Below are positions 1-41,464 of a stretch of 41,464 nucleotides of DNA, one piece after another. The notes beneath the pieces are model-generated. The model was not told where the DNA came from. It saw only the letters and a program-made list of their open reading frames with translations, and ran no database searches. Position 1 is the first letter of the stretch. Each line of letters starts with the position of its first letter. The position numbers and the translations under genes were made by a program. Source of the stretch: a virus; the IMG/VR virus record IMGVR_UViG_3300010396_000067, positions 1 through 41,464 of that record, one strand, 5' to 3'.

Positions 1-12
1 ACATAATATACA
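1..12. other. Left attachment core (attL side), dif-like
   Basis: The first 12 bases, ACATAATATACA, are repeated exactly as the last 12 bases of the window. They correspond to the inner half of a XerD arm plus the 6-bp centre (TATACA, i.e. TGTATA on the other strand) of a dif site. The next 11 bases, GTTTGACAGCT, do not resemble the XerC arm of dif, so they would be the phage-derived side. I infer that this is the crossover core at the left prophage boundary. Confidence 0.7.
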
Positions 13-52
13 GTTTGACAGCTTCAGCTGATCGACCTGCCCTGATCGGGCG

Positions 53-1633: not shown

Positions 1634-1953
1634 GTCGCCGCGCAACCGTTGTTCTGTGGCTATCCACGCTTGCCACTGCGCTGGCCGATGGATGGCGATG
1701 CGGTGCGGTTCGACCCGCTGGGCGCTCGCTTTGCGTCTCATGCCTACGTGAGAATGGCACGAAGTCGGATGCAGGCCTCGCCGGAATCAGCAGTGGCGCG
1801 GGTTGCAGCCGTGCGGGATGGGGCGGTGCAGGACACCCCCCACCGAAAGCAGGCCGCCTGCCGGGCCGGCGCCTTACCTGGTTGGCCCTCGAAAAAATGG
1901 AGGCGGTTTCAGCTTTCGCTGGTGGGGGCGCGGGGGAGGTGGTGCATGGCTGA
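1630..1953 (+). CDS. Doubtful small ORF between loader and recombinase
   Basis: An open frame of 107 codons starts in an ATGA overlap with the end of the P-like gene and ends just inside the next recombinase gene. The first 45 residues (SRRATVVLWLSTLATALADG) could form a hydrophobic or signal-like segment, and two Cys sit close together (LCVSC). The remainder is Gly- and Ala-rich and looks like non-coding translation. The stretch 1634-1945 holds no better gene in any frame. It may be a degenerate remnant of a NinB/NinG-type gene, but I cannot support that. Treat it as low confidence. Confidence 0.25.
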   Translation: MSRRATVVLWLSTLATALADGWRCGAVRPAGRSLCVSCLRENGTKSDAGLAGISSGAGCSRAGWGGAGHPPPKAGRLPGRRLTWLALEKMEAVSAFAGGGAGEVVHG

Positions 1954-3079
1954 CTTGGCGCCAGTGCCCGCCGGTCTGGAGTTGGAGCCGCAGGAACTGC
2001 AGCTGCGCGCGACCATCATGGGCGAAGGCGGCCGGCTGGCCGCGGCGCTGCGCGCGCTGGAAGCGCAGCCGTGGCGCGATGGCACGTGGTTGCGGACGTG
2101 CTGGCGGTGGGTGCAGTGCCTGCTGGTGGTGCGCGGCTTCCGTGGTGCCACGACGGTGACCGACTACGTGGAGGCCGTGATCCGGTTCGGCACGTGGCTG
2201 GATGCGCAGCGGCTGGACCTGCGCGGCGTGAAGGCGCGCGATCTGGACGCGTGGCAGCGGTCGTTGTACGTGGAGCGCCGGCTGTCCGCGGCGACGCGCC
2301 GGCTGGCGCTGATGGCGGTGCGCAGCCTGTACAGCTACCTCGCCACGCGCGACGAGGTGCCGGACGTGACGAAGGGCTATGCCGCGCCGAAACGCGTGGT
2401 GACCCAGGCGCGCAAATACAGCTCCGCACAGCTGCGGGCGATGTTCGACGCGGTGAAGCTGACCAAGGACGAGCGTCAGCAGCAGCGCGACCGCGCCATG
2501 TTGCTGCTGCTGCTCGCTGGCGGCCTGCGCCGCGAGGAGATTGCCAGCCTGCGCATCGACCAACTGGAACTGCGCAGCGACCGCAAGGGCGCGGTGCACG
2601 TTTTCGGCAAGGGCTCCAAGGAACGCACCGTGCCGATCGAGGGGCCGGTGGTTCGCCAGCTGGTGCTGTGGCTGGAAATGCGCAGCCGGATCGACAACCT
2701 CGCCACCGATGCGGTGTTCCTGACGCTGGCGCGCCGCGTGAGCGGCACGGCGATGTCGGTGCGGGCCGTCGAGCGCATCGTGAAGCGCGTGGCCAAGACT
2801 GCCGGCCTTGGCTCGTGGGGCGTGCACCGGTTCCGCGTGACCTTCGCCACGATGCTGTACGACGACGGCACCGACATCGAGCGCATCCGCGTGCTGATGG
2901 GCCACGAGTCCATCGAAACCACTCGCCGCTATCTCGCGGTGAGCCAGCGCATGAACAAACACACCCTGAAGGCACACCGCCAGCACGCCGCGCTGGGCAC
3001 GGTGCCCGACGACATGCCCCTGTGGGCGCAAGACATCGAGCGGAGGAAACATGGAACCAGCATTCTCCCGGGCCGGTGA
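1946..3079 (+). CDS. Tyrosine recombinase, XerC/XerD-like (copy 1)
   Basis: The 377-aa protein has an N-terminal SAM-like core-binding domain (about 35-150) and a C-terminal catalytic domain. The catalytic set is complete: Arg195 (AGGLRREE), Lys222 (FGKGSKERTVP), His294-x-x-Arg297 (HRFRVTFAT), His320 (MGHESIETT) and nucleophile Tyr329 (RRYLAV). The order and spacing match XerC/XerD more than lambda Int, and there is no arm-binding domain. The ATG at 1946 follows GGGGGAGG at a good distance, whereas the longer upstream frame reads like non-coding sequence. It sits between replication and packaging genes, far from the attachment site in linear coordinates but only about 2 kb from it when the ends are joined. 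It could act with the integrase at 40.3 kb on the dif-like attP, or resolve genome multimers. Confidence 0.85.
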   Translation: MADLAPVPAGLELEPQELQLRATIMGEGGRLAAALRALEAQPWRDGTWLRTCWRWVQCLLVVRGFRGATTVTDYVEAVIRFGTWLDAQRLDLRGVKARDLDAWQRSLYVERRLSAATRRLALMAVRSLYSYLATRDEVPDVTKGYAAPKRVVTQARKYSSAQLRAMFDAVKLTKDERQQQRDRAMLLLLLAGGLRREEIASLRIDQLELRSDRKGAVHVFGKGSKERTVPIEGPVVRQLVLWLEMRSRIDNLATDAVFLTLARRVSGTAMSVRAVERIVKRVAKTAGLGSWGVHRFRVTFATMLYDDGTDIERIRVLMGHESIETTRRYLAVSQRMNKHTLKAHRQHAALGTVPDDMPLWAQDIERRKHGTSILPGR

Positions 3080-6352: not shown

Positions 6353-6795
6353 GCCTTCGGCTTCATCCCATCTCAATCACCGCGGCGAATGCCGTGGTCG
6401 GTGCATGGCACCGTCATCATCGGCCGGTGGCTGGCGCGAAGTTCGCAATCTCGACGGTCGATGCCGATGGAATCGTTGTCGGCGTGGTGATCGTTGGAAG
6501 GCCGGTTGCTCGCGCATCCGATGATGGATTCACCGCCGAGGTAACGCGCTGCTGCACCGACGGGACGCGCAATGCCTGTTCGATGTTGTACCGGGCTGCA
6601 TGGCGAGCTGCCGCCGCGATGGGCTATCGCCGGCTTGTTACCTACACCCTTGCCAGCGAAACAGGCGCTAGCCTGCGCGGCGCTGGTTTCAAGTTGCTCG
6701 GCCAGCGCGGCGGCGGATCGTGGAATTGTCCATCCCGCCCGCGTCTCGACAAGCACCCCACCGAAAAGAAGTTTGCATGGGAGATTGCGGCATGA
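6349..6795 (+). CDS. XF1762-family GNAT-like protein
   Basis: The 148-aa protein matches the phage/prophage XF1762 family, first named in Xylella. It shows HRHHRPVAGAKFAI, the strand VVGVVIVGRPVARAS, then TAEVTRCCTDGTRNACSMLYRAAWRAA and LVTYTLASETGASLRGAGF, ending WNCPSRPRLDKHPTEKKFAW. The fold pattern (beta strands, long helix, TLASETGASLRGAGF) is that of GNAT acyltransferases. The substrate is unknown. Because Mu Mom is also a GNAT-fold DNA-modifying enzyme, a DNA-modification role is an attractive but unproven idea. It sits between terminase and portal with ATGA overlaps on both sides, so it is expressed late with packaging. Confidence 0.8.
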   Translation: MSLRLHPISITAANAVVGAWHRHHRPVAGAKFAISTVDADGIVVGVVIVGRPVARASDDGFTAEVTRCCTDGTRNACSMLYRAAWRAAAAMGYRRLVTYTLASETGASLRGAGFKLLGQRGGGSWNCPSRPRLDKHPTEKKFAWEIAA

Positions 6796-9035
6796 ACATC
6801 AACCCCCGCACCTGGTTCACCGGCCGCAAGTCCAACGACATCGGCAGCAGTGCGCTGGCGCGCGCGGCGATGGCGATGGGGCCGTGGACGCCGCAGATCA
6901 ACGGCTTCGTGCCGCGCGAGGTGAACCCGTGGTTTCTGGAGGCCTTGCGCAGCTCGCTGGGCGTGTTGGATGGCGCCATCAATCGCCTGGTGACGATGGA
7001 CGGCATCGTGGCGGTGGAGGGCGGCAACGACAAGCTGACGCAGCTGATCCAGCGCGAGCTGATCGATAGCATCCCGGTGGGCGACTTGCAGACCGGCCTG
7101 CAGGCGTTCTACGCCGCTCAGGGCGGCGAGATGTACGAGCAGGGCTGCACGATTGGCGAGATGGTGTTCGACCGCCGCGGCCGCGAGCTGATCGGTCTGC
7201 GCGTGGCGGACAGCAAGGGCATCCTGTTCCACCGCGACATGGACAATGGCCAGTTGCAAACCTGGTACCTTCCGCCGATGCCGAACACCTACGGCCGGCG
7301 CGATGGCACCGACGCGATCGAACACGTGCTGCGCAACAACGGGCGGCAGCTCAATGCGCAGGTGATCCAGGGCAAGGGCTACACCTTGCTTGACCCGGCG
7401 CGCATCGTGTACGCCTCGTTCAACCACGAGAACGACCAGCCCTACGGCGTGAGCCTGCTGCGCGGCATCGAGTTCGTGGGGCAGATCCTGCTGAAGATGC
7501 ACAACGCTACGGGGCAGGCGTGGGACCGCTTCGGCGACCCGATTTTCCACATCGCTTATAAGACCAAGAACCGCGCACTGAAGGATGGTTCGCTCGACAA
7601 GCGCCGCGCGCAACTGGCGAATGACCTGCAGACCGCGCTGAACGCGAAGCGCAGCGGCAACAGCGCCGACTTCACCACCGCCGTCGCTGCGGATGACGAC
7701 GTGGCGGTGAGCATCATCGGCGGCGACGGCAAGGTGTTGAGCATCGAAATGCCGGCGCGGCACATGCTGGAGCAGGTGCTGGCCAAGGTGGGGCTGCCGC
7801 CGTGGATGCTCGGCATCCAGCTGGGCACCGCGGAGCGCATGGCCGACAACCAGGCGGAGGTGGTGCTGCAGGAAAGCAAGACCCGCTGGGAGGCCCGCGG
7901 ACCGGGCCTGAACCGCGTGGTGGAGACGTGGTTGCGCGGCCGTGGCCTCACCTGGCGGCCGGGCGACTGGAAGCTGGTGCAGAACCTGCCGAACCTGCGC
8001 GACGAGCTGAAGCGGGCGCAGGCTGCGTTCCTCAACGCGCAGACGCAGATGATGCTGGCCAACAGCGGCGGCGCCAATCCGGCGTTCGATACTGGGACCG
8101 ATCGCAATACCGGCAACGATGCGCCGCCTGGCTCGCCCGCACCGGCCAAGCCGCGCAAGGATGCGGCACTGGTGCTGGAGAGCTTCGCCGACCCCGTGGT
8201 GCGGGCCGCGCTCAAGGCGCTACTGGCCCAACCTGCTGCCAACTGCGACCACGGCAAGGCCGCCACCGGCACCGCCCCGGCCGAGCCGTGGGCCGTGGAC
8301 GACCCCAACCTTCCGCGCATCGAAGGCGCGGCCATCAGCACGCTGCTGACAGCCTGGGCGAAACTGCGCGACGATACGCTGCGCACGCTGGGCCTGCCCA
8401 CCGGCACGGGCAAGGCCGGCGAGGTGGCATGGAGCTTCGACGCCATGGCGTGGCTGAATCAGCTGCAGCAACTGCTGGAGGTGTTCATCGTGAGCAACGG
8501 CAGCAAGGACAGCGCTTTCGTCGCGCAGGTGTTCGAGGCCTGGGTGCGCGGCGTGGAGAACGCCGCTGCCAGCGTGGACCGCGAGGCCGAGGCAGCGACG
8601 GTGATCATGCAGTCGCGCGAAGCGGCCAAGACCGGCATCGCCGATCGCATCAGCGCGCAGTTCCGCACCACCGCGATGCGCACCTACACCGACGACATCA
8701 TCAAGATCCTCGAAGACGGCAGCTACAACGGCCAGAGCCCGAAAACAGTGGCCTATGCGCTGAAAAAGCGCTTCAAGGGCCACGACTATGACTGGGAGCG
8801 GCTGGCCAGCAGCGAGCTGGCACTGGCGCAGAGCCGAGGCCAAGAGGACATGCTGATGGCGGACGGCTACGAGTGGTACGACTTCGACGCCGCCAGCGAT
8901 GCCTGCCCGATCTGCAAGGCGAAGGCTGAAGGCGGGCCGTACAAACTCGGCGAAGGCCCGCTACCGATGCGCGATACGCACCCCGAGTGCCGCTGTGCCA
9001 TCAAGGTGAACCTGGACGGCCCCACCACCGAGTGA
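6792..9035 (+). CDS. Portal protein fused to MuF-type minor head protein
   Basis: The 747-aa protein has two parts. Residues about 1-440 are a portal of the Mu gp29-like kind (GVLDGAINRLVTMDG, YGVSLLRGIEFVGQILLKMHN, LPPWMLGIQLGTAERMADNQ). A Pro/Ala-rich linker at about 450-480 is followed by a C-terminal MuF domain (WERLASSELALAQSRGQEDM, DACPICKAKAEGGPY, PMRDTHPECRCAI) with the family's Cys/His pattern. In Mu these are two genes, gp29 and gp30. The portal ring is the DNA entry channel, and MuF proteins are often ejected or carry effectors. The ATG at 6792 lies in an ATGA overlap; an ATG 15 bases earlier is the alternative. A hairpin follows the stop. Confidence 0.85.
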   Translation: MNINPRTWFTGRKSNDIGSSALARAAMAMGPWTPQINGFVPREVNPWFLEALRSSLGVLDGAINRLVTMDGIVAVEGGNDKLTQLIQRELIDSIPVGDLQTGLQAFYAAQGGEMYEQGCTIGEMVFDRRGRELIGLRVADSKGILFHRDMDNGQLQTWYLPPMPNTYGRRDGTDAIEHVLRNNGRQLNAQVIQGKGYTLLDPARIVYASFNHENDQPYGVSLLRGIEFVGQILLKMHNATGQAWDRFGDPIFHIAYKTKNRALKDGSLDKRRAQLANDLQTALNAKRSGNSADFTTAVAADDDVAVSIIGGDGKVLSIEMPARHMLEQVLAKVGLPPWMLGIQLGTAERMADNQAEVVLQESKTRWEARGPGLNRVVETWLRGRGLTWRPGDWKLVQNLPNLRDELKRAQAAFLNAQTQMMLANSGGANPAFDTGTDRNTGNDAPPGSPAPAKPRKDAALVLESFADPVVRAALKALLAQPAANCDHGKAATGTAPAEPWAVDDPNLPRIEGAAISTLLTAWAKLRDDTLRTLGLPTGTGKAGEVAWSFDAMAWLNQLQQLLEVFIVSNGSKDSAFVAQVFEAWVRGVENAAASVDREAEAATVIMQSREAAKTGIADRISAQFRTTAMRTYTDDIIKILEDGSYNGQSPKTVAYALKKRFKGHDYDWERLASSELALAQSRGQEDMLMADGYEWYDFDAASDACPICKAKAEGGPYKLGEGPLPMRDTHPECRCAIKVNLDGPTTE

Positions 9036-10941: not shown

Positions 10942-12015
10942 ATGCGCACGTTCTGCAAGTTCGACAAGCTCGGCGCCATCGCCGACCACAAGGGCCAGGT
11001 GAAGGCGCTGGCGCAGGCCATCGACACCGAGTTCAGCCTGCCGGCGATCTACGCCGAGCTGGGCGGCACGCCCCGCATCGCCACCATCGACGGCGTGAAG
11101 GTGCTGGGTGCCGCCGGCGGCGTCGCCACCATGCCCAGCGAGGCGCGCATCAAGTCCTATCTGGCGCAGAAGTGGGCGGTGCCGGGCGACAACCCGAACC
11201 TGGTGGACCCGCTGAACCGCGTGGTGGAGATGTTCCACTCCAACATGCCCGACATGGACAGCGGCTACACCGCGATCTTCGATTTCGTGGACATGCGCAG
11301 CAGCCAGCTGGACCGCTTCGACATCCTCGATGCGAACAACGGCATCACCTTCAACCAGGTGAAGTCGGGCGAGGAAGTGAAGATCCGCCGCACCGTCACC
11401 GACAGCCTGATGAGCGTGCCGGTGTGCACGTTCGCCGATGGCGTCGGCATCGAGGACGACTGGCTGCGCTTCCAAAAATGGTGGGCCATCAGCGACACCG
11501 TGGCCGAGTTCAACGCCAAGGCGTGGGACAAGAAGGCGCAGTGGCACTACAACCTGCTGACCGCGCTGCCGGCCGGCGTGAACGTGGCGTTCGACACCGA
11601 CGACACCAAGACGCTGAACAAGGCCGCCGCCAGCATCTTGCGCAAGTGCCGGGCCAAGGGCTACGGCGCGGGCCAGAACGCCGGCTTCGTGATCGTCTGC
11701 GCGCCGGAGGACGTGGGCCGCATCACCAAGATGCTGACCGCCACCGCCGGCACCCTGATCGTGGCGTACAACGCCAATGTGCAGCCGGTGAACGTGCACG
11801 TGAGCCAGGTGGTGGCGTCGGTGAACATCCCGGCCAACACCGGCGGCTACTACCTGGTGCTGCCCGGCCGCAAGATGAAGCGCGGCGATTGGCGCGACCT
11901 GACCGTGGAGTCGCAGCGCAACATCTACGTGCGCGCCAACGACTACGTGGGCAGCTTCCAGAGCAATGCCGCGATCGGCGACCAGGACCAGGTGTCCCGC
12001 GTGCTGTTCACGTAA
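10942..12015 (+). CDS. Major capsid protein
   Basis: The 357-aa protein is in the capsid slot after protease and cement. Segments such as DMDSGYTAIFDFVDMRSSQL, ITFNQVKSGEEVKIRR and TLIVAYNANVQPVNVHVSQ, plus a tail-end stretch KMKRGDWRDLTVESQRNIYVRANDYVG, fit a HK97-fold coat protein of the Mu/B3-like type. No long delta domain is visible at the N-terminus, consistent with a scaffold supplied by the upstream gene. AAGGAG precedes the ATG. A short gene follows and then an intrinsic terminator, which would keep capsid transcripts abundant. Confidence 0.78.
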   Translation: MRTFCKFDKLGAIADHKGQVKALAQAIDTEFSLPAIYAELGGTPRIATIDGVKVLGAAGGVATMPSEARIKSYLAQKWAVPGDNPNLVDPLNRVVEMFHSNMPDMDSGYTAIFDFVDMRSSQLDRFDILDANNGITFNQVKSGEEVKIRRTVTDSLMSVPVCTFADGVGIEDDWLRFQKWWAISDTVAEFNAKAWDKKAQWHYNLLTALPAGVNVAFDTDDTKTLNKAAASILRKCRAKGYGAGQNAGFVIVCAPEDVGRITKMLTATAGTLIVAYNANVQPVNVHVSQVVASVNIPANTGGYYLVLPGRKMKRGDWRDLTVESQRNIYVRANDYVGSFQSNAAIGDQDQVSRVLFT

Positions 12016-15416: not shown

Positions 15417-15823
15417 ACCCCGACGACAGCGGCCCGCGCCTGTGGGACGCGGACGCGCAGTACCCGCAGACGGACCTGCCGGCCTACTGCCAGCAGTGCC
15501 AGCAAAGCGGTGGCTGCGGCGACTGCCCACGGCCGCGGCTGCTGCCGGAATGCCTGCCGGCGCGTGCCGCCTTCGACGCCTGCGAAACGCAGTGGCGATT
15601 CGGCATGGCCGGAGCCACCGGGCTGGATTACGCCGCGTGCATCGCCACGCTGCAGCTGTATCTGCCGCAGTGGCGGCGCACGGCAGCGCCGGGTGACCCG
15701 ATCCACCGCATGGAGGTGGCGGACCTGCTGGGCGACCTGCGGGTGATCGAGCAGGCGCTGCTGGCGACCTGGGCGGAAAAGGCGGAGCGCAAGCAGGCCA
15801 AGCACGAGGGCGACGAGGCATGA
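14964..15823 (+). CDS. Tail assembly chaperone -1 frameshift product (gpGT-like)
   Basis: A -1 shift at AAAAAAC (15365-15371) fuses the first 136 residues of the gpG-like protein to a 150-residue extension with no other plausible start near its beginning. The extension reads LTAWARWLAGG..., has a Cys-rich knot (YCQQCQQSGGCGDCPRP, then LLPEC) and ends with DUF1799-like helices (GLDYAACIATLQLYLPQWRR, MEVADLLGDLRVIEQALLAT). Its stop overlaps the tape measure ATG (ATGA). In lambda the corresponding T extension contacts the tape measure protein. The frame, heptamer, hairpin and gene order all agree; the product has not been observed. Confidence 0.75.
15365..15414 (+). promoter_or_regulatory. Programmed -1 frameshift signal with stem-loop
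   Basis: The heptamer A AAA AAC (15365-15371) is in the correct phase for -1 slippage (codons GAA AAA AAC). Four bases later begins a 9-bp stem with one bulge, AGCCTGGGC (15376-15384) pairing with GCCCAGGGCT (15405-15414). The zero-frame TGA (15414-15416) starts at the last base of the stem. Confidence 0.85.
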
Positions 15824-18800
15824 TCACCGAGAACACCCTGCGGCTGAAACTGGAGACCACCGGCGACGGCCAGCTGAAGGCGTCGATGGATGGCGCCGCC
15901 ACGTCGGTGCAGGGGACCGATGAAGCGCTGCAGGGCCTGAACGCCACCGCCGCGGAAACGGCGCAGGCCCAGCAGCAGGCCGCCGATGCGATCGCCGCCA
16001 CCGGCGAAAGCGCCGACGAGGCCGCCGCGCGCATCAAGGCCATGGTGGCCAGCTCGCTGGAGCGCGCCGATGCGGAGCGGGCCGCGCAGCAGGCCGCGCA
16101 GCGCACCACCACCGCCAATGCCGCGCAGGCGGAAAGCATCGCCGGCGTGGTGGCGGCGCAGAACCGCGCCATGGCCGGCGCCACGCAGATGGTGCGCAAC
16201 GACGCGCTGGCGGCGAATGCCGCGAAAAACACCCAGGCCATCGAGGCGCAGCGCATCGAGCTGGCCAGCCTAGTGGGGCAGATCGACCCCACCGTGTCGG
16301 CGCTGGGCAAGCTGGACGAGCAGCAGGCCAAGCTGGCGGCGTTCCACCAGCAGGGGCTGCTGAGCGGCGACGATTTCAAGGCCTACAGCGCCGCCATCGA
16401 CGCCAGCCGGGCGCGCATCACGCTGGCCGGCGAGGCCATGCACAGCTTCAACCTCAACACCGCCAACACGCGGCGCGAGGTGGGCCGGCTGGCTGGCGAT
16501 ATCGTCAACGGCAACTGGGGGCGCTTCCAGCAGACCGCGCTGACGCTGGCCAATTACAGCGGCCTGATGGGCGAGGCCTTCACCGCCACCGGCGCGGCCC
16601 TTGTGGGCGTGGTCGGCATTCTCGGCCTTGCGCTGGTCGCCTACCAGAAAGGCGCAGCCGAGGAGGAGGCGTTCAACAAGCAGCTGCTGCTCACCGGCAA
16701 CATCGCCGGCACCACCAGCGGCCAGCTGGCGGACATGGCGCGCAACATCGCCGCGGCCACCGGTACGACCCAGCACCAGACGGCGGACACGCTGGCGCAG
16801 GTGGTGGCTACCGGCAAGTTCACCCACGACCAGCTGCAGACCGTGGCGACCGCCGCGCAGCAGTTGCAGGACGCCACTGGCCAGTCGGTCAAGGAAACCA
16901 TCAAGCAGTTCGAATCGCTGGCCAACGACCCCGCGGCCGGCATCGCCAAGCTCAACGACCAGCAGCATTTCCTGACGCTGGCCATCTATGACCAGATCAA
17001 AGCCTTGCAGGATCAGGGCCAGCAGCAGCAGGCGGTGGATCTGGCGATGCAGACCTACGCCGGCACCATCTCCGACCGCACGCCGAAGATCACCGAGAAC
17101 CTGGGCCTGATCGAGCAGGCATGGCGCGGCATCAAGAGTGCCGCGGAGGCGGCCGCCGACGCCGCCATGAGCGTGGGCAGAACGCCCACCGGGCAGGAAA
17201 AGTTCGATGCGCTCGCCAGCGAAAAGGACCGGCTGCAAGGCTTGCAGGCGCAGGGCGTTCAGTTCGACCCCAACAGCGGCCGCGACCTGCAATCGTCCAT
17301 CGACAGCATCGTGGCGCAGATGGCCGCCATGCAGGACGCGCGGAAGGCGATGGATGTGCAAACCTCGCAGGCGGCGGCCGATCAAGCGGCGCAGGATGCG
17401 GGCATTGCCCTGGCGCGGCAGGCCGACCAGTACGCCAGCGCCGAGGTGAAGCGCGCCCGGGAAATCGAAAAGGCGCATGGCGACGCCAACGCCGCCATCG
17501 CCAAGGCGCAGCTGGCGCAGGATGCCGACCTGCGCGCCAAGCTGATCGCCCAGGCCAAAGCCAACGAGGAGGCCATTGTCGCCGGCATCCAGTCGCGCGA
17601 TAAGAAGCCGCCCAAGCCGAAGGCCGACCCCTTCAACCACCTGGACCAGCTGGTGCAAACCGCCCAGGTGGCGGATGCGAACTTTGGCCTGCCGAACGGC
17701 CAGACGGAGCAGGTCAAACAGATCCTTGCCATCGTGGATGCCGGGGCGAAGCTGATCGCCAGCGGGCAGGACGTGACGCGGGTGCAGGCGCTGGTGGCGT
17801 CCGGCGTGGATGCGGTGAACGACAAGTACGCCAAGCAGGCGGCGCAACTGCAGCAGCAGAACGTCATCGCGATCCAGAAGTACCAGGACGCGCTGGACAA
17901 GGAAAACGCAGCGCTGCAGCGGAACATCGACGCGCAGGTGCTGCATGTGGGCATGGGCGACAAGGAATACCAGCGCACCATGCAGCTCAACGACGTGTAC
18001 CAGAAGAACGCCGAGGCGCTGGCGCAGTTGGCAGTGGAGCGCGCCAAGCTGGTGGCCGATGGCAAGAGCACCGCTGCGATCGACGGCGAGATGGCCGCGC
18101 GCCAGGCGGACCTGCTGGTGAAGGTGGCCCTGCTGAAGCACGGTTACGACGAGCTCGACGCCGCGCAGCAGGATTGGCAACAGGGTGCCGTGCACGCGCT
18201 GCAGAACGTGCATGACAACGGCCTGGACCTGGCCAAGGGCATGAGCGATGCCGTGACCGGCGCGTTCAACGACATGACCAGCGCCGTGGTGAACTTCGCC
18301 AGCACCGGCAAGTTCAGCCTGGCGTCGTTCGCGCAGGATTTCGTGAACGCCGTGATCAAGATGGAGGCGCAGGCGCTGGAGGCGCAGGCCGCCAGTGCGC
18401 TGATGAGCTGGATGGGCGTGGGCCAGTCCTACGGCGCCGAAGGCACCAACACCTTCAACAGCCAGGGCTTCGTGTCGCACGTCGGCGGCTACGCCGACGG
18501 CGGTCCCATCCATGGGCCGGGCACCGGCACCAGCGACAGCGTGCTGATCCGCGCCAGCAAGGGCGAGTACATGCAGACCGCCGATGCGCATGCCTACTAC
18601 GGCACCGCGTTCATGGATGCGGTGCGCACCAAGCGGCTGCCGAGGTTCGCAGCGGGCGGCCCCATCAGCGGCAGCTACGGCGGTGCCGGCGGCCAGCCCG
18701 CGCCGCAGATCATCGTGAACAACAACAGCAGCGCCAACGTACAGGCCAGCAGCGAGCAGCAGATGGACGGCAGCTGGATCACCCGCATGGTGATCGACGC

Positions 18801-18894
18801 CGTGGCCACCGACGTGGCGCGCGGCGGGCAGGCCGCCAAGGCCATGCAACAACGCTTCGGCCTGCAGCGCCGCGGCGTACCGGTAGGAGGCTGA
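15820..18894 (+). CDS. Tape measure protein
   Basis: The 1024-aa protein is the longest gene and follows the tail chaperones, both standard for tape measure proteins. It is Ala/Gln/Asp-rich with long helices. The start (ITENTLRLKLETTGDGQLKA) is like the prophage tail length tape measure family, and a hydrophobic segment lies at about 250-272 (ALVGVVGILGLALVAYQKG). Further coiled coils follow, then a Gly-rich C-terminus (YADGGPIHGPGTGTSD, FAAGGPISGSYGGAG). At about 0.15 nm per residue this suggests a tail near 150 nm; that number is a rule-of-thumb inference. It sets tail length and probably helps DNA cross the inner membrane. Confidence 0.9.
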   Translation: MITENTLRLKLETTGDGQLKASMDGAATSVQGTDEALQGLNATAAETAQAQQQAADAIAATGESADEAAARIKAMVASSLERADAERAAQQAAQRTTTANAAQAESIAGVVAAQNRAMAGATQMVRNDALAANAAKNTQAIEAQRIELASLVGQIDPTVSALGKLDEQQAKLAAFHQQGLLSGDDFKAYSAAIDASRARITLAGEAMHSFNLNTANTRREVGRLAGDIVNGNWGRFQQTALTLANYSGLMGEAFTATGAALVGVVGILGLALVAYQKGAAEEEAFNKQLLLTGNIAGTTSGQLADMARNIAAATGTTQHQTADTLAQVVATGKFTHDQLQTVATAAQQLQDATGQSVKETIKQFESLANDPAAGIAKLNDQQHFLTLAIYDQIKALQDQGQQQQAVDLAMQTYAGTISDRTPKITENLGLIEQAWRGIKSAAEAAADAAMSVGRTPTGQEKFDALASEKDRLQGLQAQGVQFDPNSGRDLQSSIDSIVAQMAAMQDARKAMDVQTSQAAADQAAQDAGIALARQADQYASAEVKRAREIEKAHGDANAAIAKAQLAQDADLRAKLIAQAKANEEAIVAGIQSRDKKPPKPKADPFNHLDQLVQTAQVADANFGLPNGQTEQVKQILAIVDAGAKLIASGQDVTRVQALVASGVDAVNDKYAKQAAQLQQQNVIAIQKYQDALDKENAALQRNIDAQVLHVGMGDKEYQRTMQLNDVYQKNAEALAQLAVERAKLVADGKSTAAIDGEMAARQADLLVKVALLKHGYDELDAAQQDWQQGAVHALQNVHDNGLDLAKGMSDAVTGAFNDMTSAVVNFASTGKFSLASFAQDFVNAVIKMEAQALEAQAASALMSWMGVGQSYGAEGTNTFNSQGFVSHVGGYADGGPIHGPGTGTSDSVLIRASKGEYMQTADAHAYYGTAFMDAVRTKRLPRFAAGGPISGSYGGAGGQPAPQIIVNNNSSANVQASSEQQMDGSWITRMVIDAVATDVARGGQAAKAMQQRFGLQRRGVPVGG

Positions 18895-19732: not shown

Positions 19733-20133
19733 CCATGCTCCCCGCCTGGGCCGCCGACTACGTGGGCTTGCCCTATGCCACGCACGGCCGCGAGCGTGCC
19801 GGCATCGATTGCTGGGGTCTCGTGCGCCTGGTGCTGGCGGAAGTGTTCCACGCGGAACTGCCGGACTACGCCGACCGCTACGCGGACGGCAACGACTGGG
19901 GCGCCATTGGCACCGCCGTGCGCGATGGCCTGGCCGATGGCTGGACGCGCGTGGAGCAGCCGCGCGCGGGTGACCTGTTGATTCTCAGCATTGCCGCGCG
20001 GCCGTGGCACTGCGGCCTGATGCTGGGGCCGCTGCACTTTCTGCATGCGCCACCCGACACCACCACCTGCATCGAACGACTCGACTCGCCGCGCTGGGCG
20101 CGGCGCATCCAGGGAATTTACCGCCATGGCTGA
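19729..20133 (+). CDS. NlpC/P60-type tail tip peptidase (gpK-like)
   Basis: The 134-aa protein shows the NlpC/P60 catalytic Cys28 in GIDCWGLVRLVLAEVF and His94 in RPWHCGLML; a third polar residue follows in LHFLHAP. Such enzymes cleave peptidoglycan stem peptides and in siphophages act in tail assembly or local wall digestion during DNA entry, like lambda gpK without its N-terminal Mov34 part. Starts are GTG 19729 (GTGA overlap) or ATG 19735. The gene overlaps the tip protein gene by 8 bases. Confidence 0.82.
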   Translation: MTMLPAWAADYVGLPYATHGRERAGIDCWGLVRLVLAEVFHAELPDYADRYADGNDWGAIGTAVRDGLADGWTRVEQPRAGDLLILSIAARPWHCGLMLGPLHFLHAPPDTTTCIERLDSPRWARRIQGIYRHG

Positions 20134-23035
20134 CGGATCCTGCACGCTCGTCGCGCGCCCCAACCTGTTCGACCGCGACAGCACCGTGTACGCGGAGGTG
20201 CAGGCCGGGCAGACGCTGGCGAAGATGCTGGGCGAACAAGCCACGCTGGCCTGCGAGGTGAGCGTGGGCGGCTATGCCGTGCCGCGCGAGCTGTGGGGCA
20301 GGGTGCGGCCCAAGCCCGGGCAGACCATCCACGTGGCCGTGTACCCGCAGGGCGGTGGCGGCGGTGGCAACAAGATGCTCCGCACGGTGCTGCTGGTGGT
20401 GGTGGCGGTGTTGTCCGCCTATACCGGCGGCGCCGTGGGCGCGGCCTACGGATCCGCCTACGGCGCCGCCGCGGGTGCGGCGGTGGCCGTGGTGGGCTCG
20501 CTGATCGTAAACGCGCTGGTGCCGCCGCCCATGCCGAAGGGCGCCGATGCCAATGGGGGCGGCGACCCCTTCCAGCAGCTCAACAGCATCACCGGCACCA
20601 GCAACCGCGCCAACCCTTACGGCGTGGTGCCGTGCGTGGTGGGCAGCTTCCGGTTTTTCCCGCCACATTCGGCGTTGCCGTACACCGAGATCAGCGGCGA
20701 GGACCAGTACCTGCGCATGCTGCTCGACCTTGGCTACAGCACCGTGCCCGCCGATCTGGACATCAGCGATATCCAGATCGGCGAAACCGACATCGCCAGT
20801 TACGACGACGTGGAATGGGAAATCAGCACCGCGCCCAGCCTGTTCACCCAGGACGTGTACGAGCTGGCGGTGGGCACGTCGCTGGTGAACGTCAACGACA
20901 CCGCCACGCGCACCACGCAGGGTGCGAGCACCGAAATTTCGCTGGATATCGTATTCGGGCAGGGGCTGTTCGGCGTGGCGACCGATGGCAGCACCACCAC
21001 CGGAACGGTGCAGTTTGCCGTGCAGTACCGCCCCGTGGGCGCCAGCACGTGGACGGATATCGGCGCGGCGACCGGCCTCACGTTCTCCGGCGGCATGGCA
21101 TCCATCGGCGGCTCCACGATCAGCGTGAGCAGCGGCAAGCGCAAAACGCTGCGCTGCGGCGTGCGCTGGACGGTACCGAGCGGCCAGTACGACGTGGTGG
21201 TGACGCGCGGCAGCAGTTCGTTCCCGGATTCCGGACCGGGCGGCCGCATCGGCGATGCGCAGTGGACGGTTCTGCGATCGATCAGCCCGCAGAACCCCAG
21301 CACCACCGGCACCACCAAGCTGGCCATACGCATCAAGGCCACCGACCAATTGAACGGCGTGGTGCAAAACCTGAGCGTGCTCGCCGCGCAAAAGGTGCGG
21401 CGCTGGGACAACGTGGGCATGGCGTGGCTGGCGCCTGCGGCCAGCACCAACCCTGCGTGGATCTACCTGTGGCTGATGACGCAGTGCCCGGCGGTGATGC
21501 GCCGCGTGGCCGACGCGCGCATGGACATCGCCGGCATTGCCGCGTGGGCCGCGGAATGCGACGCCAAGGGTTTGCAGCTCGGTTTCGTGATGGACAGCGG
21601 TCGCGCGTTCGGCGACGTGCTGCGCGATGTGCTGGCCGCGGGCCGCGCCAGCTTCGGCCTGCGCAACGGCCTGTACAGCGCCGTGCGCGACCTGCCGCAG
21701 GTGGTGCCGGTGCAGATGTTCACGCCGGCCAACTCGTGGGGCTTCAGCTACAGCCGCAGTTTCATGGACCTGCCGCACGCGCTGCGCGTGAAGTTCACCA
21801 ACACGGAGGCCAACTACCAGCAAGACATCCGCATGGTGTACGCGGACGGTTACGACGCCGGCAACGCCACGCGTTTCGAGGAGCTGGACCTGTCGATGGT
21901 GATCGACCCCGATGCCGCGTGGCGGCTGGGGCGCTACCACCTGGCCGTGGCCTACAACCGGCCCACGCAATACACCTGGAATGCCGACATCGAACACATG
22001 GTGTGCGAGCGCGGCGACCTGGTGACCCACGCCCACGACATCACCGGCTGGGGCACCGCCTGGGGCCGCGTGAAAGCCGTGAGCGGCAGCACCCTGACGC
22101 TGGACGGGCTGGTGACGCTGGAATCCGGCAAGACCTACGCACTGCAGCTGCGCCGCAGCGACGGCACGCAGCAGAACTTCGGCATCACCACGGCCGCCGG
22201 CGACACGCAGACGGTGACGCTGGACGCGGCACCGCTGGCCACCGACGTGGGCGCGTTGTTCGTGCTTGGCGAAGTGAACCGCGTGACCGCGCAATACATC
22301 GTGCGCGCGGTGGAGCCGAGCGACGACCTGACCGCGCTGATTACCGCCGTGGACGCGGCGCCGGCCGTGCTGGATGCGGACAGCGGCACGCCGCCCACCT
22401 TTGTCAGCGACATCACGGGCAAGGCCTGGTGCGCCGCGCCGGAGCCGCCGGTGGTGCACATCCGCGCCGGCACCACGGCACCGGACGATGCAGGCGTGAT
22501 CAAGGCGGTGACGGGCGTGGGCGGCTCGCCGGCTGGCGGCATCTACCGGTTCCCGGTGGCCGGCCCAGGCGGCGGAGGCGGCTGCGTGGTGGTGGAAAGC
22601 TACCTGGGCGACATGCGCCGCGCCGGCGAGGTGCAGGTGGGCGACATGCTGGACATGGCCGACCCCGCCACGCTGGCGCCGCGCAGCGAACGCGTGACGT
22701 ACAGCGAGGCCAAGCTGCAACCCTGCGTGGAGCTGGTGACAGCCAGCGGCATCGTGCTGCGTTGCTCCACCACCGCGCCGCTGCCAACCGAGCATGACGG
22801 CCTGGTGCTGGCGCCACACGTGGCCGGCAAGCGCGTGGCCGTGCGCGACGGCAACGGCGAGCGCTGGGAGGCGGTGACGCGCATCCGCTCGCTGGGCCAG
22901 CGCACTGTGCAGCACATCAGCGTCAACGAAGGTTGTTTCTGGGCCGGTGCCGAGCCGGGCCGCTACGTGCTCCACCACAACAAGATGATGCGGCAAGGCC
23001 CCAACGACGACCAGCCGCGACGGGGGATTGCGTAA
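20126..23035 (+). CDS. Central tail tip protein (gpJ-like) with C-terminal Hint domain
   Basis: The 969-aa protein has an N-terminal gpI-like part with a beta-rich start and a Gly-rich loop, then a hydrophobic Gly/Ala zipper at about 85-132. The gpJ-like hub follows, with strands such as RMLLDLGYSTVPADLDISDI and RVTAQYIVRAVEPSDDLTAL. After a Gly-rich linker (GPGGGGG) begins a Hint-type module at Cys820 (CVVVESYLGDMRRAGEVQVG), ending in CFWAGAEPGRYVLHHN with Asn952 and then Lys953. The Cys start and HisAsn end match intein/Hint blocks A and G. Block B reads CSTTAPL, with Ala where the usual His stands. The domain may cleave itself or may only be structural. It starts 8 bases inside the NlpC gene. 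Confidence 0.85.
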   Translation: MADGSCTLVARPNLFDRDSTVYAEVQAGQTLAKMLGEQATLACEVSVGGYAVPRELWGRVRPKPGQTIHVAVYPQGGGGGGNKMLRTVLLVVVAVLSAYTGGAVGAAYGSAYGAAAGAAVAVVGSLIVNALVPPPMPKGADANGGGDPFQQLNSITGTSNRANPYGVVPCVVGSFRFFPPHSALPYTEISGEDQYLRMLLDLGYSTVPADLDISDIQIGETDIASYDDVEWEISTAPSLFTQDVYELAVGTSLVNVNDTATRTTQGASTEISLDIVFGQGLFGVATDGSTTTGTVQFAVQYRPVGASTWTDIGAATGLTFSGGMASIGGSTISVSSGKRKTLRCGVRWTVPSGQYDVVVTRGSSSFPDSGPGGRIGDAQWTVLRSISPQNPSTTGTTKLAIRIKATDQLNGVVQNLSVLAAQKVRRWDNVGMAWLAPAASTNPAWIYLWLMTQCPAVMRRVADARMDIAGIAAWAAECDAKGLQLGFVMDSGRAFGDVLRDVLAAGRASFGLRNGLYSAVRDLPQVVPVQMFTPANSWGFSYSRSFMDLPHALRVKFTNTEANYQQDIRMVYADGYDAGNATRFEELDLSMVIDPDAAWRLGRYHLAVAYNRPTQYTWNADIEHMVCERGDLVTHAHDITGWGTAWGRVKAVSGSTLTLDGLVTLESGKTYALQLRRSDGTQQNFGITTAAGDTQTVTLDAAPLATDVGALFVLGEVNRVTAQYIVRAVEPSDDLTALITAVDAAPAVLDADSGTPPTFVSDITGKAWCAAPEPPVVHIRAGTTAPDDAGVIKAVTGVGGSPAGGIYRFPVAGPGGGGGCVVVESYLGDMRRAGEVQVGDMLDMADPATLAPRSERVTYSEAKLQPCVELVTASGIVLRCSTTAPLPTEHDGLVLAPHVAGKRVAVRDGNGERWEAVTRIRSLGQRTVQHISVNEGCFWAGAEPGRYVLHHNKMMRQGPNDDQPRRGIA

Positions 23036-29635: not shown

Positions 29636-29938
29636 ATGCACACCGATAACTCCCCACGCCAGCCACTGAACAAAGCCCTTGCTCATGCCTGTGAAATCGC
29701 GGGCGGACAGTCAGCGCTTGCCTGCTCACTCGGCCGAAAGCAGGGCACGGTATGGGAGTGGCTGTACGTGAGCGGCAGGGTGCCGCCGGACGTGGCCATG
29801 CAGGTCGAAGACATCACAGGCATACCGGCCGAGGCCATGAATGGCGACTTAGCGACCTTCGCGAAGCGCCGTCGCATTCGCGTCCGCAAGCTCCGCCGCG
29901 AGGCGGCAAATAGCGAGCAGGGCAGGGCCGCCGCATGA
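29636..29938 (+). CDS. Cro/YdaS-like DNA-binding protein
   Basis: The 100-aa protein has a Cro/YdaS-type helix-turn-helix (about 10-65; LNKALAHACEIAGGQSALAC, LGRKQGTVWEWLYVSGRVPP, then AMQVEDITGIPAEAM) and a basic C-terminal tail (AKRRRIRVRKLRREA). YdaS/Cro proteins bind the operators and turn off lysogenic control. It is the first gene of the early operon, transcribed from the promoter overlapping the operators. There is no Shine-Dalgarno; the predicted transcript starts at the ATG. Its stop overlaps the next ATG (ATGA). Confidence 0.82.
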   Translation: MHTDNSPRQPLNKALAHACEIAGGQSALACSLGRKQGTVWEWLYVSGRVPPDVAMQVEDITGIPAEAMNGDLATFAKRRRIRVRKLRREAANSEQGRAAA

Positions 29939-30723
29939 ACCTGATCGTCTACGCCCGCGTGTCCACCGACGACCAGCGCCGCAACGGTGTGAGCATGGAA
30001 CAGCAGCCGGAGCGCCTGCGCGCCTACCTTGCGCTGCACGACCACACCCAGGCCGCGCTGCTGCTGGACGAGGGCGTGAGCGCCAGCGTGCCGTTGGAAC
30101 GCCGACCCGCCGGCAAGCGCGTGCTGGAGGCAATGAAGCATGGCACCGCGGACGGCGTGGTGGTGGTGCGGCTGGATCGCCTGTTTCGCGACGCGCTGGA
30201 CGGCCTCACGTTTTTCCGCATGGCCCAGCGCAAGGGCTTTGCCGTGCACAGCGTGGCGGAGCTGATCGACAGCAGCACGCCTGCCGGCCGGCTGGCGCTG
30301 ACCATCCAACTGGCCGCCGCGCAGTACGAACGCGAACTGGACGTGGCGCGCGCCATCGAATGCAACCGCAGCCTGCGCGAGCAGGGCAGGGTGTACGGCC
30401 CGGTGCCCTACGGCTGCGTGGCCGTGGGCGAGGGCGACGCACGCCGGCTGATGCGCGACCCGCAGACGTGGGTGCACCGCGTCACGGCCGTGCGCTTGGC
30501 CGAGAAACTGAGCCTGCGCAAGGCCTGCGCCGAGCTGGAGGCCCGCGGCATCCCCAGCCCCACCGGCAAGCGCCGGTGGAGCCCCAACACCTTGAACGAC
30601 ATGCGCGTGCATCACGCCGATCTTCTGCGCCTCCCCCTGCTGGACAACGACACGACGGCCGATGGCGAGCAGATTGCCAGCGTCGAAGCCAACACGCCTG
30701 ACCCGGAGCGGACACATGCATGA
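29935..30723 (+). CDS. Serine recombinase (resolvase/invertase family)
   Basis: The 262-aa protein has an intact resolvase catalytic domain: nucleophile Ser10 in VYARVSTDDQ and the Arg cluster in VVVVRLDRLFRDALDG (Arg79, Arg82, Arg85), then the long helix (RLALTIQLAAAQYERELDV). A partial recombinase domain follows (GPVPYGCVAVGEG, KLSLRKACAELEARGIPSPT, WSPNTLNDM), but the zinc ribbon and coiled coil of large serine integrases are missing. It is translationally coupled to the Cro-like gene, so it is made early. A role in excision, inversion or genome resolution is possible. It is unusual beside three tyrosine recombinases. Confidence 0.85.
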   Translation: MNLIVYARVSTDDQRRNGVSMEQQPERLRAYLALHDHTQAALLLDEGVSASVPLERRPAGKRVLEAMKHGTADGVVVVRLDRLFRDALDGLTFFRMAQRKGFAVHSVAELIDSSTPAGRLALTIQLAAAQYERELDVARAIECNRSLREQGRVYGPVPYGCVAVGEGDARRLMRDPQTWVHRVTAVRLAEKLSLRKACAELEARGIPSPTGKRRWSPNTLNDMRVHHADLLRLPLLDNDTTADGEQIASVEANTPDPERTHA

Positions 30724-32735: not shown

Positions 32736-33175
32736 GCCTGCCCACCCTCTACGTCGGCATGGCCAACCCCGTGCGCGATGCGGATATCGCCCAGGCGCTG
32801 ACGGTGGAAACCATCGGCGCGGTGGCCGCGCATTTCAACGTGTCGCGCACCGCGGTGCGCGCTGCGGCGGCACGGCATGCGGCGCGCCGCGACTTCGACC
32901 TGCTGCTGACCGGCCCCGACACCCCCCCGGTGCGCGTGTGCCACGTGGTGTCGTGCAAGCCATTCACGGCGGTGGCGCTGGCAGCGTTCCGCACCTACGC
33001 CGGCACGCTGAAGAAGCTGGAGATTCCCGGCTGGAAACTCACGGACGGCCACGCCAGCTGCACCGTGGCGGATATCCAGCTGGCCCTGCAGAGCGCGGCG
33101 AAGGCGGAAAAGCAATCCAACGAGGCGCCGCGCGCCCGCCGCGAGGCGCGGCAGCGCCTTGGCATGGAGGCCTGA
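32732..33175 (+). CDS. Hypothetical protein with HTH-like N-terminus
   Basis: The 147-aa protein has an N-terminal segment like a small helix-turn-helix (ETIGAVAAHFNVSRTAVRAA), then a beta part (PPVRVCHVVSCKPFTAVALA) and a basic helical tail (AKAEKQSNEAPRARREARQR). Its start overlaps the DnaN-like stop. Possibly a DNA-binding early regulator. Confidence 0.5.
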   Translation: MSLPTLYVGMANPVRDADIAQALTVETIGAVAAHFNVSRTAVRAAAARHAARRDFDLLLTGPDTPPVRVCHVVSCKPFTAVALAAFRTYAGTLKKLEIPGWKLTDGHASCTVADIQLALQSAAKAEKQSNEAPRARREARQRLGMEA

Positions 33176-33179
33176 CCCC

Positions 33180-34148
33180 ATGAGCAACGTCATCACCCTC
33201 GCCGGGCACAGCGTGCCGCAGGTGACGCTGGAGCAGGCGGTACAGCACTACCTCAGCCGCAAGCGCATGCGCGGCGCGCAGCTCAACACGCTGGTGGCCT
33301 ATGGCAGCGACCTGCGCGGCTTTGCCGCCTTTGCCGCGCGGCACGACATCGACCTGATCGGCCTGGTGGGCGAGCGCCTGGTGGACCGCTGGCTGGACAG
33401 CCTGAGCATGGCCGGCCTTTCCCCGCGCACGCAGGCCCGCAAGCTGGTGGTGCTGGGCCAGCTGGTGGAGCACGCGCAGCGTGAGGGCTGGCTGCGGCAC
33501 GACCCCACCAAGGATTGCCGCGTGCGCTTCACCGTGCAGCCGGTGATTGCGCCGGAGCTGTCGCCGCTGATGGCCGTGCTGGAAGGCGTGCCGGTCGACA
33601 CGCCGGCCGCGCTGCGCGATCGCGCCATGCTGCGGCTGGCGCTGGACGGCGCACTGCGCGTGAGCGACGTGGTGGGGCTGGACCTGGCCCAGCCCGGCAC
33701 GCCGCCGCGCCGTGGCGTGGACATGGGCCGGCCCACCGTGAACACGGTGGGCAAGGGCGGCAAGCCGGCCTGCGTGCCGATCAACCAGCGCACGGCGCAG
33801 TGGCTGCAGGCGTGGCTGGACGTGCGCGGCACCATGGCGCGCGACGACGAGCCGGCGCTGTTCGTGAGCAACCGCGGCCGGCGCATCACCCGCCAGCAGG
33901 CGCACAACCGCATCAAGCTGTGGGGCGCCCACTTCGGACTGCCCAACCTGCACTACCAGCTGCTGCGCCACCGCCGCGTGGGCGACGTGGTGGAGCGCCT
34001 GGGCCTGGAGGCCGGCCAGCACCTGGCGCGGCACGCCAAGAAATCCACCACCGCCAACGTGTACGGCGCGCAGGCCGCCGCCGTGGTGCGGCACGTGCTG
34101 CGCGAACACGCGGATCTGGATGCGCCGCTGGCGCGGGGTGCGGCATGA
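33180..34148 (+). CDS. Tyrosine recombinase (copy 2), early operon
   Basis: The 322-aa protein has a core-binding domain (about 15-125; VTLEQAVQHYLSRKRMRGAQ) and a catalytic domain. Arg160 (GALRVSDVV), Lys192 (VGKGGKPACVP), Arg263 (HYQLLRHRRV), His285 (LARHAKKSTT) and Tyr295 (NVYGAQAA) fit the family. The usual His three residues before the second Arg appears to be Gln260 (YQLLR), so box II is modified. Its location between early genes suggests excision or a DNA-processing function and not simple integration. The ATG at 33180 follows the previous stop by 4 bases. Confidence 0.78.
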   Translation: MSNVITLAGHSVPQVTLEQAVQHYLSRKRMRGAQLNTLVAYGSDLRGFAAFAARHDIDLIGLVGERLVDRWLDSLSMAGLSPRTQARKLVVLGQLVEHAQREGWLRHDPTKDCRVRFTVQPVIAPELSPLMAVLEGVPVDTPAALRDRAMLRLALDGALRVSDVVGLDLAQPGTPPRRGVDMGRPTVNTVGKGGKPACVPINQRTAQWLQAWLDVRGTMARDDEPALFVSNRGRRITRQQAHNRIKLWGAHFGLPNLHYQLLRHRRVGDVVERLGLEAGQHLARHAKKSTTANVYGAQAAAVVRHVLREHADLDAPLARGAA

Positions 34149-36808: not shown

Positions 36809-37201
36809 ATGAAGACCATGGAAAACAAAAAACATAATGGTGTGCTGACTGTCCAATTGGAGAGCGATCAGATCGTGATCCGCCTCCCTTTCGATGCACT
36901 TCAATGCGCGGCGGAGGCTTGTCCCGACCTTGAGGAGATAGATGACGATGGCGAGTTCGCGCCACCGATCGTTACCGATCTTCCTAAGTTTGCCGCCGCA
37001 GTGGTGTGTGCGCTGAGCCATGAGGAAGAAGACGGCACAACACCAGTGCATCGGATGTTCGACGCCGCATTTGTCTCAGCCATTGAGGCGGGCGGTGATG
37101 GCGTCGAAATTTTCGGTGTGGATGGTTACGAAAAAGCGAAGGCCGCGCGTGCCAAAAATGGCACTGCTGTGCCGGCATGGGAGGCTGACCATGTTCCGTA
37201 A
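36809..37201 (+). CDS. Hypothetical protein, lower GC
   Basis: The 130-aa acidic protein (MKTMENKKHNGVLTVQLESD, QIVIRLPFDALQCAAEACPD) is less GC-rich than its neighbours and uses different codons, as if recently acquired. A helix (KFAAAVVCALSHEEEDGTTP) and a C-terminal region (VDGYEKAKAARAKNGTAVP) follow. Its stop is 11 bases inside the RdgC gene. Confidence 0.6.
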   Translation: MKTMENKKHNGVLTVQLESDQIVIRLPFDALQCAAEACPDLEEIDDDGEFAPPIVTDLPKFAAAVVCALSHEEEDGTTPVHRMFDAAFVSAIEAGGDGVEIFGVDGYEKAKAARAKNGTAVPAWEADHVP

Positions 37202-40061: not shown

Positions 40062-40381
40062 CCCTCCGCACCTGCCCGCGCTGCCAGCAGCACACCAGCC
40101 ACCGCTGGTGCTGCGGCCTGGACCTCGCCACGCGCAAGCGCTGGCGGATGACGCGCGACCGGGTGCGCATGGTTCACGTGCTGGCCCGCTCGCGCAAGGG
40201 GCTCAGCGAGGAGATGTACCGGCTTCGCCTGGCGGCCGTGGGCGTGGATTCGTCGCTGCAACTGTCGCGGCTGCAGTTCCATCAGTTGATGGCCGGGCTG
40301 CGCACGCTACCGGACTCACCGGCGTGGATCGCCGGGCGCCGGCACGCTGTGCGGCGCGGCCGCGTCGTCAGGAGTGGCTGA
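40058..40381 (+). CDS. GemA/gp16-like regulatory protein with zinc knuckle
   Basis: The 107-aa protein has an N-terminal Cys/His cluster (CPRCQQHTSHRWCCG), then a GemA-like region (DRVRMVHVLARSRKGLSEEM, YRLRLAAVGVDSSLQLSRLQ, then FHQLMAGLRTLP). Mu gp16/GemA modulates expression of host genes. The GTG at 40058 overlaps the ASCH gene stop. It is the last early gene before attP and overlaps the 3' end of the opposite-strand integrase by 66 bases. Confidence 0.6.
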   Translation: MTLRTCPRCQQHTSHRWCCGLDLATRKRWRMTRDRVRMVHVLARSRKGLSEEMYRLRLAAVGVDSSLQLSRLQFHQLMAGLRTLPDSPAWIAGRRHAVRRGRVVRSG

Positions 40382-41311
40382 CCGATGGGCACGCGGATGC
40401 TTGGCCATGGCTGCGCGCAGGTGGGTGATGTCTGCCCCGAGATAGCGCGCGGTGCTGTCCAGGCTTTCGTGGCCCAGCATCTGCATGATGGCGGGCAGGG
40501 GGCAGCCGTGGGCGAGCAGGGTGGTGGCCATGCTGGCGCGGAGCAGGTGAGGGTACTGCCCTGTCCATGGGCGCCGGCGCGCCGCGCGCCGCACCTTGTC
40601 GTAGCCCACCGCGTTGCCGAGCGCAGCCCGGGCATGCCGGTTGACGATGGCCCACACGCTGCGCCGGCTGCGCAGCGGGCGGCCGCCGGCCGTCAGCCAC
40701 AGCGCGGCACGCTTGCCGGGCCGCGTGCCGGCGCGCAGCTGCATGTAGCACACCAGCAGGCCGTACAGTTCCGCGCTGATCGGCACCCAGCGGCTGCGAC
40801 CACCTTTGCCGGCGGCTACGTAGACGGCATCCGGCAGCACGTCGCCGACACCAAGGCTCACCAGCTCGTTGGCGCGCAGGCCGGTTTCCCACAGCGTGCG
40901 CATCATCACGTTGTCGCGGTAGCCGTTGAACGTCGAAACGTCCGGCGCGGCGAGCATGGCCAGCACCTGGTCGTCGGTGAACCAGCGCACCAGCCGCGCC
41001 GGCACATGACGATTGGACGGGACGTTATTCGATTCTTGTTGCGGCGCCAGGCCGAGCAATGCCATGGTGTCGTAGAACGCGCGCAACGCGCACAGATCAA
41101 TGTTGATCGTGGCCGGTGTGGCCTTTTGCCGGCGGCGATCACCCAGCCAGCGGTGCAGCAGATCGGTGTGCAGCCGATCCGCCGCGCCACCGTATGCCAG
41201 CCAGCGACGAACGATGCCGATGTACAGGCGAACCGTCGTCGGCGACCGACTACCTGCAAGGATGCGCTCAAAACGCGCCAGCGCATCCAGCTGATCCACG
41301 TGGCCCAGCAT
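40316..41311 (-). CDS. Integrase, XerC/D-like tyrosine recombinase, adjacent to att
   Basis: The 331-aa protein has a SAM-like N-terminal domain (about 10-100; SPTTVRLYIGIVRRWLAYGG) and a catalytic domain with Arg146 (ETGLRANELVSL), Lys169 (AGKGGRSRWVP), His255-x-x-Arg258 (HLLRASMAT), His281 (LGHESLDST) and Tyr290 (ARYLG). It lies on the reverse strand beside the right attachment core, the position of an integrase. The ATG at 41311 follows GGAAGG closely; a TTG at 41413 extends it by 34 residues but is less likely. It has no arm-binding domain, like XerC/D. It overlaps the GemA-like gene tail to tail, so expression would interfere with early readthrough. Confidence 0.85.
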   Translation of the reverse strand: MLGHVDQLDALARFERILAGSRSPTTVRLYIGIVRRWLAYGGAADRLHTDLLHRWLGDRRRQKATPATINIDLCALRAFYDTMALLGLAPQQESNNVPSNRHVPARLVRWFTDDQVLAMLAAPDVSTFNGYRDNVMMRTLWETGLRANELVSLGVGDVLPDAVYVAAGKGGRSRWVPISAELYGLLVCYMQLRAGTRPGKRAALWLTAGGRPLRSRRSVWAIVNRHARAALGNAVGYDKVRRAARRRPWTGQYPHLLRASMATTLLAHGCPLPAIMQMLGHESLDSTARYLGADITHLRAAMAKHPRAHRSATPDDAAAPHSVPAPGDPRR

Positions 41312-41440
41312 CTGCCTTCCGCAAGGCTGGGTTACTTGACTGTAACGGCGCGTTATCACACATCCAGTCCAATTGGAGGACCGGAGCAGGTCGGCAAGCT
41401 TGATTACTTTCAAACAGTTACGTGAAATTCTTCGCGTAAA

Positions 41441-41464
41441 ATGTCATATTTGACATAATATACA
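41441..41464. other. Right attachment core (attR side) with XerD-like arm and palindrome
   Basis: Positions 41448-41458 read ATTTGACATAA. Its complement, TTATGTCAAAT, matches the gammaproteobacterial XerD arm TTATGTTAAAT at 10 of 11 bases. TATACA (41459-41464) equals the dif centre. The last 12 bases repeat the first 12 of the window. Overlapping them is a palindrome, ATGTCA-TATT-TGACAT (41441-41456), which could bind a regulator or recombinase. The rest of 41312-41440 holds the presumed integrase promoter region, with no clear consensus boxes. Confidence 0.7.

Follow-up and report, generated by a model that had tools for sequence, protein, structure and literature searches.

Introduction

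The dif site is required for chromosome dimer resolution. Its well-known users, namely filamentous phages, satellites and islands, rely on borrowed XerC and XerD. According to Carnoy and Roten, about a quarter of dif sites adjoin phage or mobile-element genes (PMC2731167). TLCphi-type IMEX and the gonococcal genetic island (GGI) integrate into dif as dsDNA through a dif-like attP with one degenerate arm, and one intact and one modified dif remain (PMC4246890, PMC5357621). In both, and in related elements, the XerC arm is kept, the XerD arm is lost, and XerC and XerD of the host are used. The phage-like Legionella element LME-1 also carries a dif mimic; its insertion, which relies on the host XerL at a palindromic single-recombinase dif, yields an intact dif and a modified one (PMC9765430). 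Tailless prophages of the Vinavirales type at Vibrio dif are dsDNA elements of <16 kb with a double jelly roll. Integrase genes are regularly present in them, and which enzyme acts is unresolved there (PMC11630473). The presumptive PM2 site retains a good XerD arm (PMC9966536). Lambda-type temperate phages encode their own tyrosine integrase beside attP, with a short identical core at attP and attB. The open-access literature searched contained no account of tailed phages that insert at dif and bring an integrase of their own.

The locus analysed here (the window, a whole stretch of 41,464 bases) resembles TLCphi-type IMEX and GGI in its dif-like attP with one degenerate arm and in the insertion of its relatives at dif. 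However, the XerC arm is replaced and the XerD arm is kept, and this polarity, opposite to that of TLCphi and GGI, was found in 15/15 phages compared. Unlike those elements, it is a tailed phage with its own tyrosine recombinase gene (int) beside attP. LME-1, which is similar in mimicking dif, is unrelated by the comparisons made here. The lineage shares integrase carriage with the Vinavirales-type prophages but is tailed and 40–45 kb in size. It shares an integrase beside attP and a short common core with lambda-type phages, but its target is dif, its Int is Xer-like, and Pfam matched only core-binding and catalytic domains in Int, with no recognisable N-terminal arm-binding domain.

It is probable, in our view, that the window holds a temperate tailed phage genome opened at the att core, and that the Int of this phage recombines attP with the host dif in such a way that dif is rebuilt and the prophage is stable. 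This would be a family of tailed phages with its own dif-specific integrase. A tailed-phage lineage with its own integrase, an arm that changes with the enzyme and a rebuilt dif would represent a second solution of opposite polarity, making testable both the Xer-like recombination of dif and why the XerCD of the cell spares the prophage.

Structure of the Genome Ends and attP

As shown in Table 1, ACATAATATACA is present at both ends of the window, as claimed in the preliminary description, and is found nowhere else in it even allowing one mismatch; shuffled window sequence gave 0 occurrences of this 12-mer. The joined ends read ATTTG+ACATAATATACA+GTTTGAC, which on the minus strand is AGCTGTCAAAC-TGTATA-TTATGTCAAAT, and re-checking returned the same 12-bp identity to E. 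coli-type dif that had been described before. The circular phage genome would carry a 28-bp dif-like attP consisting of a phage-specific arm, a 6-bp centre and a XerD arm. The window is a virus record without host DNA, and its own insertion site is therefore unreadable from the record. There were no tRNA genes within the window, and a tRNA as attachment site was dropped for this reason.

Table 1. Positions of att elements and of selected genes in the window.
Feature	Position	Strand	Remarks
att core, left copy	1..12	-	Minus strand TGTATA centre + TTATGT (inner half of XerD arm); same core at lysogen junctions
Phage-specific attP arm AGCTGTCAAAC (minus strand)	13..23	-	Occupies XerC-arm place of dif; likely Int half-site
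Tyr-L, second Xer-like tyrosine recombinase	1649..3079	+	Across attP from int; probably starts downstream of ORF start; conserved in relatives
Portal protein	6720..9035	+	PHROGs; also minor-head match
Probable capsid protein	10942..12015	+	PF25209 just above cut-off
Tail tape-measure protein	15820..18894	+	PHROGs
Central tail fibre J	20045..23035	+	PHROGs
Serine recombinase	29935..30723	+	
Tyr2, third tyrosine recombinase	33159..34148	+	Catalytic His replaced by Gln in window and some relatives
Int, Xer-like tyrosine recombinase	40316..41413	-	Likely start GTG 41359, 93 bp from core; PF00589 + PF02899 (Pfam)
attP XerD arm TTATGTCAAAT	41448..41458	-	Identical to a host XerD arm
att core, right copy	41453..41464	-	Matches left copy

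The window attP was scored against 28 host dif sites. Its XerD arm was a complete match to the dif of the likely host group and scored 23.7 bits, with the 28 host sites spanning 16.2–24.9 bits, while its XerC-side arm scored like random sequence against host XerC arms (P = 0.11). Seven attP sites scored against host dif had XerD arms of 16.6–24.9 bits, within the host range, and random-like XerC-side arms (P 0.08–0.46). The scoring bore out the earlier statement that the XerD arm and centre are dif-like and that the XerC arm is not conserved. TTATGT was invariant across the 15 phages compared. Seven forms of the att centre occurred among them, and wherever the two junctions were visible they shared one form. 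The phage arm carries the conserved motif CxGTCAAAC in Int clade 1, and its sequence differs in the remaining Int clades. Similarity of the phage arm tracked similarity of Int (r = 0.78, 15 phages), a correlation to which common descent contributes. The phage-specific arm is likely the half-site of Int.

The dif Site of the Hosts

Of 234 Rhodanobacteraceae genomes, 127 contained the sequence CGCATAATGTATATTATGT, and 126 of these carriers had it in a single copy. An alignment of 28 unoccupied sites gave ATT[TG]CGCATAATGTATATTATGT[AC]AAAT, the inner 19 bases of which were fixed by the design of the search. GC skew flips sign across the prophage of Rhodanobacter glycinis (G001) and at a prophage relic in G058, with a less sharp change in G049; a position near the replication terminus had been predicted, and these sign changes in the Rhodanobacteraceae genomes examined agree with it. 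The hosts encode both XerC and XerD.

Insertion of Related Prophages at dif

Relatives were reached via the adjacent Xer-like integrase in Rhodanobacter glycinis S10, IMG/VR contigs and further genomes. Viral contigs were scanned with the XerC-side motif, and the other matches listed were screened for recombinase homologues; G243 was left out, its Int homologue having lost catalytic residues and its genome being fragmented. Eight prophages with both ends visible sit exactly in dif (G001, G002, G049, G472, G511, G595, G878 and G881), and contig G883 has the same flanks as G472. All lysogens found were within the gammaproteobacteria. The polarity was constant in the eight prophages: the integrase-side junction consisted of host XerC arm, core and phage XerD arm, and the far junction of phage arm, core and host XerD arm. 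For example, G001 carries the core at 861820–861831 and 906466–906477, with ATTTCGCATAA-TGTATA-TTATGTAAAAT on the integrase side and TACTGTCAAAC-TGTATA-TTATGTCAACT on the far side. Uncut attP was carried by G003, a circular contig with a 127-bp end overlap, and was also found beside int in G004, G877, G879 and MACPNOA1.

These eight relatives support the proposed insertion at dif, which for the window itself would follow by analogy, its own lysogen presumably looking like theirs. The right host flank predicted before, the XerC arm TTATGCGAA in window orientation, was found on the integrase side in 8/8 two-sided prophages. A left flank of ATTTA had also been expected; this flank is not fixed, the outer XerD-arm bases differing among hosts (e.g., AGTTG, ATTTT). 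In the three most distant Int matches (G806, G842 and G578), no clear dif core was found beside int, so the dif habit is claimed solely for the closer lineage.

The phage MACPNOA1 (KY697807) was the only DNA-level phage relative found for window bases 1–24000. It has a related portal, an Int with 44% identity, Tyr-L, Tyr2 and the serine recombinase, and a dif-type attP at 40498–40509 beside int (KY697807.1, locus L014). It differs in its phage arm, CTAAGCCAC, in that the att site is unannotated in the record, and in its recorded host, a cyanobacterium. MACPNOA1, recorded from Microcystis, belongs to a lineage whose lysogens found here are all gammaproteobacterial, so the recorded host may be doubtful.

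The Rebuilt dif and Predicted Prophage Stability

Through integration, the XerC arm of the host is combined with the XerD arm of the phage, and the integrase-side junction thereby becomes a full dif again. Where the host is one of the Rhodanobacteraceae, the rebuilt dif equals the host consensus, and it would be expected to work as dif. In some relatives, G878 among them, the outer bases of the XerD arm fit the host dif less well, and the rebuilt dif may therefore be weaker there. In the relic of G058, with ~2 kb of phage remaining, the hybrid site is the sole exact dif core left, which is consistent with this site serving as dif. The same relic was considered as proof that Int alone suffices and was rejected as such, since only about 2 kb of phage is left. 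Because the far junction is without a XerC arm, excision of the prophage by the XerCD of the cell is predicted to be inefficient, as the analogy of GGI and LME-1 suggests (PMC5357621, PMC9765430).

Int and the Proposed Mechanism of Integration

The catalytic set R-K-HxxR-H-Y is complete in Int of the window. The int gene adjoins attP in every relative, and the active site is intact in nearly all. The NCBIfam models for XerC and XerD were the best-scoring ones for Int, yet their scores of 125 and 119 bits stayed far below the respective cut-offs (335 and 330), and in the tree Int branches apart from the XerC and XerD proteins of the hosts. Both the scores and the tree position suggest that Int is neither XerC nor XerD proper. 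The AlphaFold model of Int had a mean pLDDT of 53.6, too weak for a fold search.

In the mechanism that we propose, Int, encoded beside attP, would recombine the attP centre with the centre of the host chromosomal dif. The phage would supply a good XerD arm and the host would keep its XerC arm, making the integrase-side junction again a complete dif. At the far junction the phage arm would take the place of the XerC arm, and host XerC/XerD and FtsK would act poorly on this pair of sites, with the result that the prophage would not be lost at cell division. Integration at dif by a Xer-type reaction had been put forward in the preliminary description; insertion at dif holds in the relatives, and we infer Int to be the likeliest catalyst.

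It is extremely improbable that assembly or trimming created the end repeat and that its likeness to dif is due to chance. The record is without host flanks and the overlap is just 12 bp, as such a reading would have it, but many independent lysogens have the same core as their junction, and the core is uncut in continuous contigs. Moreover, G880 (IMGVR_UViG_3300016669_000004; 42,122 bp), an independent relative, ends at the same core, with the core at 1–12 and the core plus AA at 42109–42122. If assembly breaks where excised and integrated forms diverge, exact 12-bp ends would be expected. A different assignment of enzymes, with the phage as an IMEX integrated by host XerC/XerD via its dif-mimic attP and with Int aiding excision or doing another job, is unlikely. 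In its favour, host XerCD tolerates a degenerate arm during integration of TLCphi and GGI (PMC4246890, PMC5357621), the attP here has a full XerD arm and centre, and the hosts encode both enzymes. The R. glycinis prophage also sits at dif despite an Int without the first catalytic Arg, a loss that may be later. Against this assignment, nearly all relatives encode beside attP an Int whose active site is intact, and the degenerate arm is constant within Int clades and changes between them, which is unexpected for a merely tolerated XerC arm.

Tyr-L lies across attP from Int in all near-complete relatives, and a reaction of two enzymes, with Int on the phage arm and Tyr-L or host XerD on the XerD arm, was therefore retained as a rival, although it seems quite unlikely. 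It would fit a dif that itself serves two different recombinases and a XerD arm that stays host-like, but the single-enzyme integrases of many phages use asymmetric sites, and Tyr-L could have another role, such as the resolution of phage multimers. We give a small chance to a related proposal, in which dif would be invaded without FtsK control either by a complete two-enzyme Xer-like system of the phage itself, encoded to both sides of attP (Int on the phage arm and Tyr-L on the XerD-like arm), or by Int replacing XerC in a mixed tetramer with host XerD.

Recombinases and Other Genes of the Phage

The portal, tape-measure protein, J fibre, an endolysin and the capsid match point to a tailed phage. 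Tail and head genes, an integrase beside attP and a core common to both junctions in its relatives fit a temperate tailed phage with a tyrosine integrase. Tyr-L, near attP, was as conserved as Int, which counts against the proposed mechanism. In addition, Int, Tyr-L, Tyr2 and the serine recombinase all recur in G001–G004, G049, G472, G511, G512 and G595, and in a tree of phage recombinases with host XerC/XerD each kind formed a separate group. A single phage thus has four recombinase genes, three of the tyrosine and one of the serine type, a set kept in relatives down to ~40% identity. An RdgC-like recombination protein is also phage-encoded (window 37020–38114) and kept in relatives.

Several further observations were made. 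A second copy of the C-terminal part of the J-like tail protein, 31% identical, stands at 25396–25752 at the end of the next long ORF, and this duplicated part appeared Hint/intein-like by eye. The contig ends of metagenome records like G880 may mark active prophage borders. In Int of the R. glycinis prophage (G001:C1:905332-906402), Leu replaces the first catalytic Arg, and this prophage may be locked in. In the clade, a palindrome, GGGTCCANNNNTGGACCC, closely precedes the int start (window 41366–41382, degenerate there) and is possibly an operator. Its distance to the att core was the same in 5/7 phages; in the remaining 2/7 it was shorter by 11 bp, roughly one turn of the helix.
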